Source of the DNA: an uncultured Colwellia sp.
Lineage (GTDB): Bacteria; Pseudomonadota; Gammaproteobacteria; Enterobacterales; Alteromonadaceae
Assembly (NCBI GenBank): GCA_913058245.1
Contig: CAJXQJ010000016.1
Coordinates: 1 to 64,000, forward strand
Length of the DNA: 64,000 nucleotides
Reading direction: 5' to 3'
Shown: positions 23,049-43,898 of the stretch, in pieces
Position numbering within the stretch: position 1 is the first letter of the stretch
Layout: every line of letters starts with the position of its first letter
The notes under the pieces: model-generated
Databases searched by the model: none
Told to the model about the DNA's origin: nothing
Seen by the model: only the letters and a program-made list of their open reading frames with translations
Made by a program: the position numbers and the translations under genes

Positions 23049-26000
23049 TTAATTCGCGTCTGCTATTGCTTGCTCTAAGCTCAATAATGCCGTTAAAGCA
23101 TCGTCAAAGTCAAAGTCGTTGACCAGTTTTTGAATATCAAGAATTTGTTGATGGTACTGAGTTTGATAACCAATATTCATTAATTGTGCAGTAATATCTT
23201 CTGCTTGAATATTGGCTGATGCTAAGCAAGGCTTTAATTCTTTTATAATTTTTGTCGCATCGTCAGCATTAAAACGCTGGTCACTTTTTGTTGTTTCAAC
23301 ATGCTGATAAATACGATTGAGCTGGGCTAAAATAAAATCTAAATGTGTAGTGACTTCATTTAGTTTTAGTTTTATATGTTGTCCGTTATGGTGTATTTCG
23401 CTTTCTAAGGCACTCGCTGATGCCGCTAGTTCATATGCGCCAATATATTGTGCTGTAGATTTTAACGAGTGTGCGGCACGGTAAAGATCGTCCTTTTGTC
23501 CTGAGTTATGTAAGCTTGTCATTTCTTGTGCGAGTGACTGGTATTTAGACCAAAAGTCATAAATTAACTCGGAATATAACTTTTCTTTACCGTGAATTTT
23601 TCTAATGGCCTCATCAACAGATAAACCGGTTTGCTGGCGTAGTTTTGTCAAGGTTGATGCTAATTCATCTGTTTGTTGCTGAGATGTGATTTTAGCCGCG
23701 TTATCGCTACCTTCTTTACCTAAATATTGGTTTAAAGTTTGGTAGAGTAATGCTGGTTCTATCGGTTTAGTTAAGTGCTGATTCATGCCAGCAATAACAC
23801 TTTTTTCAATATCCCCTTCCATGGCGTGAGCTGTCATAGCAATAATAGGTAAATCAGTCAGTTTTAGGGTTTGACGAATTTCTGTTGTAGCAGTTAATCC
23901 ATCCATTTCTGGCATTTGAATATCCATCAATACCAGGTCGAAATGTTGAGTGGCGACTTTCTCTAAAGCGACTAGGCCATTTTCGGCACACTCAACGCTA
24001 ATATTAGTATCGGCTAAGAATTCTTTTGCTACTTGCTGGTTGATCATGTTGTCTTCAACCAATAGCACTTTGTAGGCACTTAAATTAGGTGGTTCTATAG
24101 CTGGTAGGGTGTTTTCCACAGTAATGCGTTTACTCTCTTTACTTAATAATTCAACAATGGCGTCAACGAGTACTGATTGGTTTATAGGTTTTTCTAAAAA
24201 CTCATCAATACCAGAAAACTTAGCTAGCTCTTTTGCTTCATCTTTATCGTAGGCTGATACCATTAATATGTGAGGTAATTGACCATTTGCTTGCGCTTGA
24301 ATTTGCTTAGCTGCTTCAATACCGTCCATTTCTGGCATTTTCCAATCCATTAAGACCAAGTCATAAGGGCTGCCACTACGTTCTGCGGATAATACGGCAT
24401 TTACCGCTTGTTCGCCATTTTCGACACCATCTGCAGCAATTTCAATATGTGCGAGTGCTTCAATAAGCACTTTTCTGGCAATTTCAATATCATCAGCAAC
24501 CAATACTTTTAAGCTTGTGAGCATTTGACGATTGACCGTTTGGGTAATTTCCATTTCTTGTTCGGTATGTTCAAACATGGCAGTAAAACTAAATGTTGAC
24601 CCAACATTTACCTCACTAGTTACCGATATTTCACCGCCCATTAATTCAGTAAGCTGCTTACAAATAGCTAATCCAAGCCCAGTACCTCCATATTTACGAG
24701 TAACAGAAGCATCGGCCTGGGTGAATGATTGGAATAAGCTATTCTGTTGCTCTTTGGTCATGCCTATGCCGGTATCGTTTACAGAAAACTTCAAGGTACT
24801 GGTTTGGCTATTTTGTATTTGCATAGCAATACTGATGTGAATAGCGCCAGTTTGAGTAAACTTAACCGCATTATTAGCTAAATTAATAATGACTTGTTGC
24901 AGTCGTAGAGGATCACCTAATAGAAATTTAGGTACATCGGGTGCAACATCTATAACAAATTCTAATCCTTTTTCATGCACTTTGAAGGTACATACGTTTA
25001 CCACACGTTGTAAAATTTCGTGTAAAGAAAAGCGTATGTTTTCTAAGGTGAGTTTTTGCGCCTCAATTTTAGAAAAGTCTAATATGTCGTTAATTAAGCC
25101 AAGTAATGACTTAGAAGAATCTTGTATTTTTTCTAAATAATCTTGTTGAGTATTCGACAAGTTGGTACGCAACGCTAGCTGACTTAGACCAATAACCGCA
25201 TTCATTGGTGTTCGTATTTCATGGCTCATATTGGCCAAGAAGTTAGATTTTGCTTGGCTAGCTTGCTCAGCTTTAATTTTTTCTGCGGCAAGCTCTTTAG
25301 TACGTTCGTGAATTTGATTTTCCAAGTTACGACTGTAGCTTAATACTTGTTGATATAATTTTGCATTATCGAATGAAATTGCAGTTTGATCCGCTAATAA
25401 TTGCAAAACATTAATCCTGTCATCACTGAATGCACCTTCAATATCGTAGTGCTCTAGGTAAACAATGCCCTGTAGGTTCCCTTTAACGATACTTGGAATA
25501 CAAATAATGGACTTTGGCTGGTGATTTTCAAAATAAGGATCCGATAAAAACTGCTCTTGCGCACTAACTTTACTTAATACTTGCGCCCTTAATGTTCGCG
25601 ATACTAAATTAATTATGGAGTAGGGCAAGTGTTGATTTTTATTTGCTATACCGTCACTTGCAAGGGCTATTTCGACATTTAAAATACCATCACTTTGTAA
25701 TAATAACGCACCACTTTGAGCACCAGCATTTTCGATAATAATTACCATCATGCGATGTAAGAATGCGGTTAAGTCAACCTCACCACTTAAAGTTTCTGAA
25801 GCTTTTAATACTGATGCTAAATCAAGAACTTGAGTGTTATTGTCATGTTGATGATTAAGAGAGTTAACAGTGTCACCCTGTGTACGTTGAAACAATGTCG
25901 GGTATAATTGTGCTAACTGGCTTGCTTTATGGCTTGCCCCCCAAATTTGGAAGCTATTGTAAGCGTCTTGCAAGTATTCATTAGCCATGATCTTTTTATC

Positions 26001-29000
26001 AAGACTTAACCAATAAGTGCCAGCAAGTTCATTAGCAATGGCCAGTATATTATTGACTTTATATTTCTTTGCTAGCGCAATGGCTTGGTCATAATTTTGC
26101 CAGGCTGTCGGTTCATTCAATAGTGCTTGTAGCTCTGCCTGAACTAAAAATACTTTATAGGCATAGTTTTCTGGCGCACTGGCGGCCCACTGTTCAAGCA
26201 AAGCCAAGTTTTCTTTTAATTGTTTGAGATTGTTTTCAAATATGCCTTTTTCACTTTCACGACATAATTGATGGCTTTGCTGTGCAATAATCAAGCTAGC
26301 GTAAAATTGGAACTCGCCAAAATGATAAAGTGAAACTACTGAGCTATGGTATTGCTGCGCTAACTGCATTTGAGCAATTGCTTGCTTATTATCATTGATC
26401 AAATATGCTTGGATCATACGTGCAAGATGATAAGTAAATAAAGTCGTTACATTTTGAGTATCGTTAAGAATTTTTAGCTGTGCTGCTTCGTCAAAATGTT
26501 CACCTTGTAAATCTGAGCTGTTGCCATTTTCTTGCTGTAGATTTTCGATAAGTTGCTGCCAAACCTGCATCATAACAAGCTGATAATGCTGTTTTTTGCT
26601 TTTCATTACCGCCATATGTTGTGTAAATGTCGTTTGGCAATTTGTTAGGTCAGTACCACTTAATAACTCGTACATACTTTGAAATAACGCGGAATGGAAA
26701 GCGTACTCGATGCTGCCACATTCAATACCATGATAAAAATTTTGCGCCAGCGGTTTTACGGTATCTTTTAATGGTGATGTCCAATGGATAATGGAAGCAT
26801 TACGAGTAAACTCAATTTCAACTTGAATCGACTCTGATGGGTATTGCTGATTGACCACCCTTGCTAACGTGGCAAATTCTAACCCTTCTTCAAAACGACT
26901 AAATGCGCCACACAACAATAAACCATGAGTTACAAATACTTTTGCCGCTAGCGGAGATAAACCGGAGGTTAAGCAAAGTTCAAGTGATGCATAAGCAATG
27001 CGCATATACTCCATTGGGCTCAATAAATATGCCGGAGTTTGAATGGCATTTAGCGTATCTAATGCTAACAGCTGACTTTCATTGGTCATTGCTGGTAATT
27101 TGGCTAAGTCAGCAATGGTTTCCTTCTGGTAATGTTGTTCAATGGCTAAGTAATTGCCAGCGATCGTTGCTTCAGGCAAAGAAATACCAATCGTTTTTAT
27201 AATAGATATGCCTAAATCGAATGCTTGTTGCATTTTATTTTGCGCAATTAACGACAGCACTTGGATATTGGCAAATTTAGCTTGATCAATGACTTCGTTA
27301 AGTAAAGCACTGGTGCTTTGAAAATGTAAATTACCTTGGTTGTAGTCTTGAGTGAAATACAATACTTTAGCTTTGCCTAAAGCAAGACGGAAACATAGCG
27401 AATATTCCGATTGCCAGTGTCGTGCATCTAAATAATTTTCCGCCTGTTCGAAGTAGTATAAAGCACTGCTGTAATCATTAGCCTCTAATGCTTTATTGCC
27501 GGCAAGAAAATTAAACTGTGCCAATAATGTTTGCTTATCTTGTTCAAGATAAAGCGCCGCGGCCAAGTTAAGGTGTTCGATAAAAGCAAAAACTTGTTCT
27601 TCAACAGTTTTATTTCCTTCAGAATTTACCTCTGACGCGGATAAGTAATATTGGGCAACTTTATAATGAATAAGCGATTTAGGTGTTGGGTTAGTTAATA
27701 AATAGGCTGCTTGTTGAATTTTATCGTGAGCAAATTTAATTTGCTGTAAAGCATCTATTTTTTGATTGTTTGAATAGGCGATTAATAGGCCATCGGCAAT
27801 CAAAGGTCGTAATTCACGTTCAATTTCTTTACTGGTAATATCTAAGACATGAGCGAGTAATTGAATTGGAATTAAGCTACCGATACAAGCTGCGTGGTGC
27901 AAAATACTTTGGCCAACTTTGGATACGTGGGTTAAACGCAGCGCCATTAGCTCAATAACATTGTCTGTGGCGGAAAGTGCCTGTGACAACTTCTCATCCC
28001 ACTGCCATTGATTTTGTTTATTTTTCGCCAAAATACCTTGTTCAATAAGTGACTTTATAAATTCTTTAATAAAGAAAGGGTTACCCGCTGTTTTTTCTAT
28101 AACTATGTCCACTAGCGGCTGGATTTCATCCAATGCTAAGGCTAAAGATGTTGCAATAAATTGGCCTACGGCGGCTGTATCTAGCGGTAACAAATTTATA
28201 TGACTATGAAAAACGGCGGTATTCTTGGTATCAGTTAATAGCTGATTTAATGGGTGAGTATCACTGACTTCGTTATCACGATAGGCAAGAATGAGTAATA
28301 AATTACTAATGCTATTTTGCTCAATGAGATAATGTAACAATTGCACGGTAGCAACATCAGCCCATTGCATATCGTCAATAAATAATGCAGTAATTTTATG
28401 TTGTTGCCCTAAGGCGACTAAAAATTGCTCAATGGTATGATGAATGCGATGACGAGTTTCCGCAGGTGGTAATTCTGTTAACGGTGGCTGTGAGCCAATA
28501 ATCAATGAGAGTTCAGGCACTAAATCAATAATAACTTGGCCATTACCCTGTAGTGCATCAAGAAATATTTGTTGCCAGTTTTTTAAACTTTCGGCACTTT
28601 CACCTAATAATTGTTCAACAAGTTCGGTACAGGCTTGGGTAAAGGCAAAATAAGCACTTGGCTTTTTATACTGCTCATATTTTCCAGAGATACAGTAGCC
28701 ATGCTTTTCTATAATGGGTCGTTGAATTTCTTTTACTAGTCGAGATTTTCCAACTCCAGAATAACCACTAATAATACTAACCAAAGTACCTTGGTGTTCA
28801 ACAACTTGACTATAAGCATTAAGTAACGTTTGTTTTTCACTCGCACGGCCATACAAGTTCGCAGCGAAGACTAATTTATTGCTAAAGTCTTTTTCACCAA
28901 GTGGAAATAAAGTGACATCTGATTGCTTTTCATAAGCTTGTAAACAGCGAGTAAAGTCTTCTGCTATGCCTGTGGCTGTTTGGTAGCGCTGATTTGGATC

Positions 29001-29744
29001 TTTAGCTAACAAACGCGCCAGTATTAAAGAAATTTGTTTTGGTAAATCAGCATTATATTCATTGGCAAGCTTTGGTGTTTTAGCAATATGTGCGTGTACC
29101 AGCTCCATATCGTCTTGATATAGAAATGGCAAACGACCAGAAAATAATTGAAATAAACTGGCTCCAATAGAGTAAAAATCTGAATAAACCTCAACAGCGT
29201 GATTCATCCTCCCAGTAGCTTCAGGAGAAAGAGTTGCTAGGTATTGGCGATCAACACTGTTATTTGATGCGCGTTTATGTAAAGCAGATATTTTAGTAGC
29301 AAAATTTAAATCGTATATTTGAGCATCAAGCGATTGATTTACATAAATATTGCTAGGAGAAATATTATTTACAATAAAGCCAAGTTGATGCAACTGTGAG
29401 AATAATTGACAAACGCTGACGGATATCTTTAATTTTTCTAATAATGTCAGTGATTGCTGAGATAAATCGCACAGCGTATAAGTTTGCTTTGAAAATGGAA
29501 AAATTGCGTAACAATATTGATGGTCATCTAATTGATTAATTGGCGCAATAAGTTGGCTAATGGGTAACTTGCTTTGCAGCTTGGAAAATTTATTAAAACG
29601 GTTAATATTTTGATTATTAGCGTCTTTTTCAATTCTTTTGATAAGGAAGCTTTCTTTTTGTTCATTTTCAGCAATAAATACCTGAGTTGAACTCGATATT
29701 TCCTGTTGTTCCTTAACGACTGTATATCCGTGGAGATTGACCAT
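23049..29744 (-). CDS. Giant hybrid kinase: Ser/Thr-(pseudo)kinase, AAA ATPase, GAF, histidine kinase, two receivers, Hpt
   Basis: 2231 residues, uninterrupted. Approximate order: Ser/Thr-kinase-like domain 1-270 (Lys36; PSN with Asn132; [30 protein letters not shown]); AAA_16-type ATPase ~290-520 (Walker A GYSGVGKS near 328, Walker [11 protein letters not shown]); long helical repeat region ~620-1290; GAF ~1310-1470; HisKA with His near 1508 ([15 protein letters not shown]); HATPase ~1610-1735 ([18 protein letters not shown]); receiver 1 ~1748-1870 ([13 protein letters not shown]); receiver 2 ~1893-2015 ([13 protein letters not shown]); Hpt near 2090 (AAHSLKSTA). No transmembrane segment. 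The catalytic HxD of the kinase domain reads VNN (residues 125-127) and DFG reads DLN (145-147), so it may be catalytically dead. The REC-GGDEF gene follows. The family is known as trifunctional Ser/Thr-kinase/ATP-binding/histidine kinase; its signals are mostly unknown. Confidence 0.92.
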
Positions 29745-35461: not shown

Positions 35462-35487
35462 AAAAAAGCCGCTATTGAAAGCGGCTT
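35462..35487 (-). terminator. Terminator of the aminotransferase gene (also reads forward)
   Basis: AAGCCGCT (35466-35473), loop ATTGAA, AGCGGCTT (35480-35487). Read on the minus strand it ends in a run of T (35462-35467), as needed for the gene at 35608-36795. Read forward it could weakly end the DUF1361 unit. Confidence 0.85.
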
Positions 35488-35502
35488 ATATTCAGAAAGT
35501 AT

Positions 35503-35577
35503 GGTCAGTTTTTTGTTCCTGACATAAACTTAGTACCTACATCAATGTGGCAATATCACAGTCACATGGATGTGAAA
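35503..35577 (-). repeat. 3'-UTR element, copy A
   Basis: Read on the minus strand this ~75-base sequence runs from TTTCACA to AAAAAACTGACC. It aligns over its length with 43782-43855 (about 57 of 76 columns identical by eye). The strongest block is TAGGTACTNAGTTT...GTCNGGAA...AAAAACTGACC. It contains a small hairpin TCACA-TCCA-TGTGA. It sits between the aminotransferase stop (35608) and the terminator at 35462-35487, in the sense orientation. Confidence 0.75.
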
Positions 35578-35607
35578 GAGCGATGAATAGCCATTAATAC
35601 GAATATG

Positions 35608-43759: not shown

Positions 43760-43781
43760 GTAGTATGTCGAATGATCACCA

Positions 43782-43855
43782 TTTCACAAATGTGTGACCG
43801 TGACATTGCTGATATTTAGGTAGGTACTTAGTTTTAGTCTGGAAAAAAACTGACC
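43782..43855 (+). repeat. 3'-UTR element, copy B
   Basis: It runs from TTTCACA to AAAAACTGACC and is homologous to 35503-35577 (minus). Hairpin TCACA-AATG-TGTGA keeps the stem of copy A while all four loop bases differ. It lies 22 bases after the M16 stop and 16 bases before the terminator at 43872-43898, in the sense orientation. The repeated position suggests a structured RNA segment of the 3' UTR. Confidence 0.75.
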
Positions 43856-43871
43856 TAATACCTTATTTATA

Positions 43872-43898
43872 AACACCACGCTTGTCGTGGTGTTTTTA
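43872..43898 (+). terminator. Intrinsic terminator after the M16 peptidase gene
   Basis: AACACCACG (43872-43880), loop CTTGT, CGTGGTGTT (43886-43894) with a T run to 43897. It ends the M16 transcript after the 3'-UTR element. Confidence 0.92.

Follow-up and report, generated by a model that had tools for sequence, protein, structure and literature searches.

REP and BIME repeats are short palindromes that occur in many copies, form two-orientation mosaics and lie mostly downstream of genes (PMC3733652). The same work (Di Nocera et al. 2013, PMC3733652) describes the CGTC class as having no transposase of its own and leaves open the way in which it moves. It also reports REPs that have entered other palindromes, with T. 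roseum, H. neapolitanus and A. variabilis as the examples, and the targeting of palindromes therefore has a precedent. REPs are also targets themselves, as IS1397, IS621 and ISPpu9 insert into them site-specifically (Tobes and Pareja 2006, PMC1525189). Here we describe three classes of short unit, BB, Q and E, two of which make up a pair of related blocks in a 64,000-nucleotide stretch of Colwellia DNA (the window). Double-hairpin elements are reportedly also known from mitochondria, through work on Allomyces.

The nearest known kind of BB, Q and E is the REP/BIME. Both are short palindromes in many copies, with mosaics of both orientations and, as in the CGTC class, no transposase of their own; BB, Q and E differ in that they have no unpaired GTAG or CGTC tag, carry two hairpins each, fall into three self-nesting classes and keep an NGGA loop, and in that BB starts exactly behind a terminator T-run. 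IS1397, IS621 and ISPpu9 are far longer and contain a transposase gene, whereas our units measure 49-51 nt and are gene-less. The RAYT/REPtron and IS200/IS605 systems are likewise stem-loop mobile DNA (Nunvar et al. 2010, PMC2817692), but BB, Q and E are not associated with Y1 transposases and no fixed tetranucleotide is common to the three classes. The mitochondrial double-hairpin elements (PMC2800124) are likened here by description: they too are two-hairpin, clustered and without a known mobiliser, but our units are bacterial-chromosomal, nest sequence-specifically and target terminators. The CsrB and CsrC RNAs (RF00018, RF00084) likewise have many GGA-loop hairpins, but the arrays described here fall below the gathering score, are of mixed strand and are known here as DNA only. 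A search of the open-access literature, mostly without subscription papers, gave no description of the BB/Q/E family. Three features appear to be new relative to the literature that we examined: a two-hairpin unit without a tag, classes of unit that nest in one another, and the placement rule for terminators.

The window copies and their units

Minus-strand positions 35503-35577 (copy A) and plus-strand positions 43782-43855 (copy B) are identical at 59 of 76 aligned columns, and the local score of 40.5 lies far above the 17.5 at most that 2000 shuffles reach; the similarity reported in the initial annotation is thus real, with 59 identical columns in place of its 57. The pair is the first listed (I1) among the inverted-repeat pairs of the window. 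Each copy has a stop codon on one side and a hairpin terminator on the other, and the genes before them, an aminotransferase (PF00155) for copy A and an M16 peptidase (PF00675/PF05193) for copy B, are unrelated, which agrees with the earlier statement that no gene duplication is involved. Elsewhere in the window, positions 23049-29744 (-) hold an open frame of 2231 aa, whose domains are protein kinase, AAA_16, GAF, HisKA, HATPase, response-regulator and Hpt.

From their sequence, both copies are best read as decayed nests in which a 49-nt Q lies within the linker of a 50-nt BB, and the full nests are wider than the blocks first aligned (35488-35584 for copy A, 43775-43870 for copy B). Next to copy A, a terminator hairpin (AAGCCGCT/AGCGGCTT, 35466..35487, +, assigned from sequence and gene positions) separates two convergent genes, those for DUF1361 (+) and the aminotransferase (-). 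Its tail is reduced to TT on the + side, and the BB begins at the next base. The first part of this BB (P hairpin and linker GGT, 35488..35505, +) is decayed; it was placed by eye against the BB consensus and was not reported as a model match. The Q follows within the linker, at GGT^AT (35506..35552, -), and is found by model R1 with 44.8 bits and E = 2.5e-8 (E = 1.1e-9 in a second model search). The second BB part (linker AT and bulged hairpin U, 35553..35584, +) matches positions 19-50 of model R2 with E = 2.1e-4 (9.2e-6 in the second search), and its loop CACATGGATGTG is intact.

In copy B, both BB parts are decayed, were assigned by eye and give no model match. The bulged hairpin U (43775..43806, -) has lost the TCC/GGA loop; the first part (P hairpin and linker) lies at 43853..43870 (-). 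Between the two, within the linker, lies a Q (43807..43852, +) that model R1 finds with 27.9 bits and E = 8.3e-4 (E = 3.7e-5 in a second search); R1, which detects both window Q parts, was built from other copies. The BB adjoins the 5' side of the M16 peptidase terminator hairpin (43871..43895, +, from sequence), where it stands behind a short T-run that lies on the other strand, and this hairpin is also present in most of 15 orthologous loci. The placement of copy A is the majority pattern for BB, and that of copy B, on the 5' side of the M16 terminator, the rarer one. When folded as single-stranded DNA, the window copies are weak (z about -1.5) relative to intact units (z -2.5 to -4.0).

The three classes were defined from sequence and then turned into covariance models. 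BB (50 nt) consists of AT, a hairpin P that is perfectly paired and has the loop GGA, the linker GGTAT and the bulged hairpin U, mostly with the loop TGGA and usually with an internal loop in which GA or GG faces ARGA; E (51 nt) consists of GAC, P, TAAT and U; Q (49 nt) consists of TG, P, TACTT and a hairpin with loop CTGGA. Each unit thus has a hairpin at either end, as do IS200/IS605-type elements. The stems covary, which supports the structured character proposed in the initial annotation. In Q, 96.5% of stem cells are paired and 29 cells show double changes (6.6 in shuffles, with none of 500 shuffles as high). In a less selected set, the P-loop is NGGA in 56 of 63 distinct P-hairpins, and at the variable pair in the second hairpin 67 of 74 cases form a standard pair. 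The BB and E alignments, whose rows were partly chosen for pairing, also beat shuffles on paired cells and double changes; a third measure for BB, further pair types, is no better than shuffles (353 of 500). Across 146 loci in a bulged-hairpin scan, an NGGA loop occurs in 96, six other loop types occur in 5 to 19 each, and loops reverse-complementary to or overlapping NGGA give 94 to 99.

The letters of the GTAG and CGTC tags are present in the units, but they are paired and covary, and we rejected both assignments. In Q, GTAG lies in the 3' arm of P and changes with the 5' arm (variants GTCGG, GTTGG and GCAGG). In BB, which does not have the single 8-9 bp stem with unpaired CGTC, GTC belongs to the outer stem of U, which covaries (GTCAC/GTGAC, GTCAT/ATGAC) but forms its outermost pair in only 11 of 22 rows. 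BB and Q nest at one fixed point, with their GGA on opposite strands, and also occur separately. BB, Q and E further cluster into intergenic arrays with units in both orientations and linker modules, a BIME-like mosaic. Q units of 48-49 nt also follow one another in exact tandem, head to tail, at G079:C6, G041:C2, L082, L039 and L136.

Distribution, target positions and empty sites

The initial annotation proposed a dispersed element and spoke of two copies; the former is borne out by more copies in the same genome and in relatives, and the latter applies to the window alone. In the own genome (G000; 2.96 Mb, 67% complete), copy A as a DNA query gives 28 matches at E <= 10, of which 15, the query itself counted, have E <= 0.002, and the models give 37 BB matches at E <= 0.1 and 14 Q matches at E <= 0.001. 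The copy A matches are mosaics of several short palindromes adjoining terminators and not one repeat. BB occurs in all 17 genomes of the window's genus, with 2 to 55 matches each among the best 150 or fewer scored candidates per genome. This genus is probably Cognaticolwellia, as its genome G218 and the genome of L054, Cognaticolwellia mytili, share one Y1 match at an identical position on the contig. Q, counted order-wide among the best 30 or fewer, is present in 17 of the 197 order genomes sampled and in 4 of 14 listed family members, the own genome among them. A pattern scan of named genomes gave at least 118 stretches, and the matches listed from them include Colwellia, Cognaticolwellia, Pseudocolwellia, Pseudoalteromonas, Psychrobium and Alteromonadaceae, as well as Nitrincolaceae MAGs labelled Oceanospirillaceae. 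With one BB/Q array as the query, a phage collection gave no match and plasmids gave a single weak 45-nt match, on a Saccharobesus plasmid, and we therefore rejected a phage or plasmid carrier.

The positions of the copies are far from random, unlike the scatter that the initial annotation would have taken for a plain REP/MITE. Among 54 best-scoring BB loci (27 of 28 from the genus and 27 of 30 from the own genome), 38 have their first base immediately after the hairpin and T-run of a terminator; the same terminator criterion, the energy cut-off of which (-8.4, also used in the upstream test below) was chosen after the values were known, is satisfied at 831 of 127,760 window positions on both strands. 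The other 16 copies include 14 that follow another unit, as they score above shuffles for an upstream unit, and two without a terminator (L166 and L173) for which this score is not above shuffles. The open frames around the arrays are stop-to-stop frames and not curated genes; with that reading, the upstream frame points toward the terminator in 36 of the 37 arrays that have one, and on the downstream side of 38 arrays 21 have a convergent frame, 15 a codirectional one and 2 none. The position of BB is set by the terminator that it starts behind and not by the gene whose 3' UTR it occupies.

E and Q have targets of their own. E was studied in 61 full-length copies chosen from 102 + 31 matches, some of which are repeats from one MAG: CATC stands directly before it in 41 of the 61, the other 20 being without it, and C directly after it in 49. 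E thus mostly lies between the two C of CATC^C in hairpin loops, which belong to BB and Q; examples are TCACATC[E]CATGTGA, CCGACATC[E]CATGTCGG and GTACATC[E]CTGTAC. Of 34 distinct non-tandem contexts, 14 have E flanks that pair with each other over at least 5 bp, against a permutation mean of 3.4. For Q, the flanks of 109 of 157 matches were used, with partial, weak and E-interrupted ones left out; 47 have the BB linker as right flank (AC), 17 are in tandem or next to another P and 45 lie elsewhere, and the base at -1 is T in 96 of the 109. Among 36 distinct contexts outside BB, 10 have flank stems of at least 5 bp, where 2000 permutations average 1.1 and reach 6 at most, and the remaining 26 stay below this length. 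Within BB, flank stems of at least 4 bp occur in 1 of 42 (permutation mean 1.1). Because Q in BB shows no flank stems and 26 of the 36 other contexts stay below 5 bp, the targets of Q extend beyond hairpin loops; at L115, L119 and L136 Q follows, by eye, an A- or T-rich tail.

In several genomes Q lies in the loops of unrelated GTAG- and CGTC-type REPs. These cases represent fewer independent insertions than copies, since a REP may have spread with its Q, and one RAYT locus alone holds three of them. They nevertheless allow filled and empty sites to be set side by side. The genome of L037 has an empty GTAGGTTGGACTTTAGTCCGACA alongside the filled GTAGGTTGGACTT[Q]TAGTCCGACA. Colwellia DT_19 has in its genome the empty counterpart GTAGGTCGAAGTTCACTTCGACA of the filled site L067, GTAGGTCGAAGTT[Q]CACTTCGACA, with nothing duplicated or lost, and an empty GTAGGTCGTGGTTTACCTCGACA that matches the filled site L062. 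The empty GTAG-REP pattern occurs 23 times in G197 and 34 times in G198 (the genomes of L037 and Colwellia DT_19) and 0 times in a third genome, and a control with the pattern reversed gave 0. In G200, the genome of L044, empty relatives of the CGTC-type loop at this locus occur at 8 places. No target duplication, as a MITE would leave, was seen between filled and empty REPs. We also note that in Alteromonadaceae MAG DT_4 (L033, L043, L074, L103, L132, L146 and others) Q and E lie within a larger repeat with ends like TATACCAATTG...CAATTGGTATA and a MITE-like look.

The orthologous sites of the two window copies, compared in 15 same-genus genomes, vary in what they hold. At the aminotransferase site, L263 and L265 have an E and the other 13 genomes give no model match, among them L268 with a clean terminator. 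At the M16 site, L290 has a pair of BB behind the opposite end of the M16 terminator, L286 has a weak Q remnant (E = 0.012), and the other 13 give no clear model match.

Movement of the units and alternative readings

We consider it probable, at about 0.7, that copies A and B are decayed nests of related non-autonomous double-hairpin elements of ∼50 nt, putatively mobile and with hairpin-directed targets. In this order of events, a BB would go in directly behind an intrinsic terminator (hairpin and T-run) and a Q would afterwards go into its linker; the wider BB/Q/E family would pick sites adjoining or inside hairpins, with Q also entering GTAG- and CGTC-REP loops and sometimes sites behind T-runs. 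We infer a trans-acting enzyme that recognises GGA-loop hairpins, probably when replication or transcription exposes them as single strands, and that would join the unit to a hairpin-associated single-strand target without duplicating it. Such an enzyme would fit the GGA loops on paired stems, the exact 49-51-nt units, the absence of duplication and the types of target. No host function is necessary for explaining the pattern, and the elements may persist because terminator and repeat sites spare genes.

The first candidate for such an enzyme is a Y1 transposase: the units would be ordinary REP/BIMEs moved by a resident RAYT or another Y1 (IS200/IS605-like) enzyme, and their hairpin preference would be the known taste of this enzyme class for single-strand hairpins. 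We regard this as unlikely. Two-hairpin units and insertion without duplication suit the class, and Y1_Tnp (PF01797) is found in 88 of the 197 order genomes, in 13 of the 17 genus genomes and in 7 of the 9 genomes behind chosen loci; at L234 (Colwellia DT_19), a RAYT gene lies amid GTAG-REPs, three of which contain Q. Yet Y1 is present in 8 of 17 Q-bearing and 80 of 180 Q-less genomes, which is no association, and is absent from G041 (19 Q, 100% complete), G147 (8 Q, 100%) and G096 (30 Q, 93%), as well as from the genus genomes G220 (55 BB matches), G209 (32) and G206 (16), whereas G219 has Y1 and 2 BB matches. Five of these Y1-less, element-rich genomes (G041, G147, G220, G209 and G206) are 99-100% complete present-day genomes; PF01797 was also not found in the own genome, a 67% complete assembly. 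Proximity tells the same way: the Q and BB models match just two of the 39 Y1 loci searched with them, L234 with three Q and one BB and L249 with a Q end, and 12 genus Y1 loci searched with the BB and E models show no BB and two weak E. Several genus Y1 genes have their own GGGGTCAG repeats. An association of the kind that GTAG-REPs have with RAYTs is therefore not seen across the 197 order and 17 genus genomes, with L234 as the exception, and this survey for Y1 yielded no mobilising enzyme for BB, Q or E.

A structured RNA, one of the two readings in the initial annotation, would make the transcribed arrays CsrA/RsmA-binding hairpins that act as 3'-end sponges, which from the sequences at hand we hold to be very improbable. 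The CsrA SELEX consensus is RUACARGGAUGU, which resembles ACANGGATGT, the loops keep NGGA while the stems vary, and the arrays give sub-threshold Rfam matches to CsrB (E = 0.0092) and CsrC (E = 0.031). These scores are far below the gathering cut-offs (23.9 against 71 and 20.7 against 61), and unrelated RNAs match similarly, for example MicX with E = 0.01. Rfam recognised no family in the window, so that a known family can be set aside there, and eight array loci gave only sub-threshold matches. One transcript-borne RNA is also ill suited to the arrays because the GGA strands of BB and Q are opposed and 15 of the 36 arrays with a downstream gene are codirectional with it and hence behind a terminator. 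A single 3'-UTR RNA family is ruled out, as the block of ∼75 nt is a BB plus a Q, which nest at one fixed point and are found apart. Motif likeness and sub-threshold scores would lend a CsrA-sponge role weak support, and for the many arrays before codirectional genes that role is unlikely. Passive spread, in which the units ride on REPs or MITEs or arise by tandem slippage and terminators merely tolerate insertions, appears very improbable, even though Q and E do lie within the MITE-like repeat of DT_4, Q lies within REPs around a RAYT, and exact tandem units exist. Mere tolerance predicts any position up to the next gene, but 38 of 54 BB start at the base after the T-run and the paralogous empty sites are precise; exact junctions of this kind are hard to reconcile with it.

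If the units are indeed mobile elements with hairpin-directed targets, a further step is tentative and, in our estimate, clearly short of even odds: that target structure places gene-less double-hairpin elements of ∼50 nt through an enzyme other than Y1/RAYT, in a mobility system that would be undescribed, would use terminator hairpins and hairpin loops, those of the units included, and would give self-nesting arrays at gene ends in Colwelliaceae and neighbouring orders. The mobile-element reading itself, if right, yields mobile units of very small size whose targets follow a clean rule that can be counted: either the first position after the T-run of an intrinsic terminator or the middle of a hairpin loop. 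The movement of gene-less palindromic repeats would then become testable. Nested units give a relative order of insertion within one genome. Annotators might mistake BB/Q nests for structured 3'-UTR RNAs, as happened with copies A and B.

Several Y1 loci show repeats of their own make-up. At L234:1000-2500, which encodes a 151-aa Y1 (RAYT), the Q-bearing GTAG-REPs all lie behind a sigma-factor-like gene, and this gene has a BB remnant behind its terminator. At L340, L343 and L345, genus Y1 genes are flanked by copies of the GGGGTCAG-type repeat, which resembles the GGGGWSAS motif of TIRYTs (PMC3733652). A tandem array of ∼117-nt units adjoins the Y1 gene at L346, with one 13-mer present at least 14 times. 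Finally, at L053, L030 and L071 E stands before CATCCTGAAC and not after GTTCATC, as if the CATC core had swapped sides, an exchange that may bear on the mechanism of joining.
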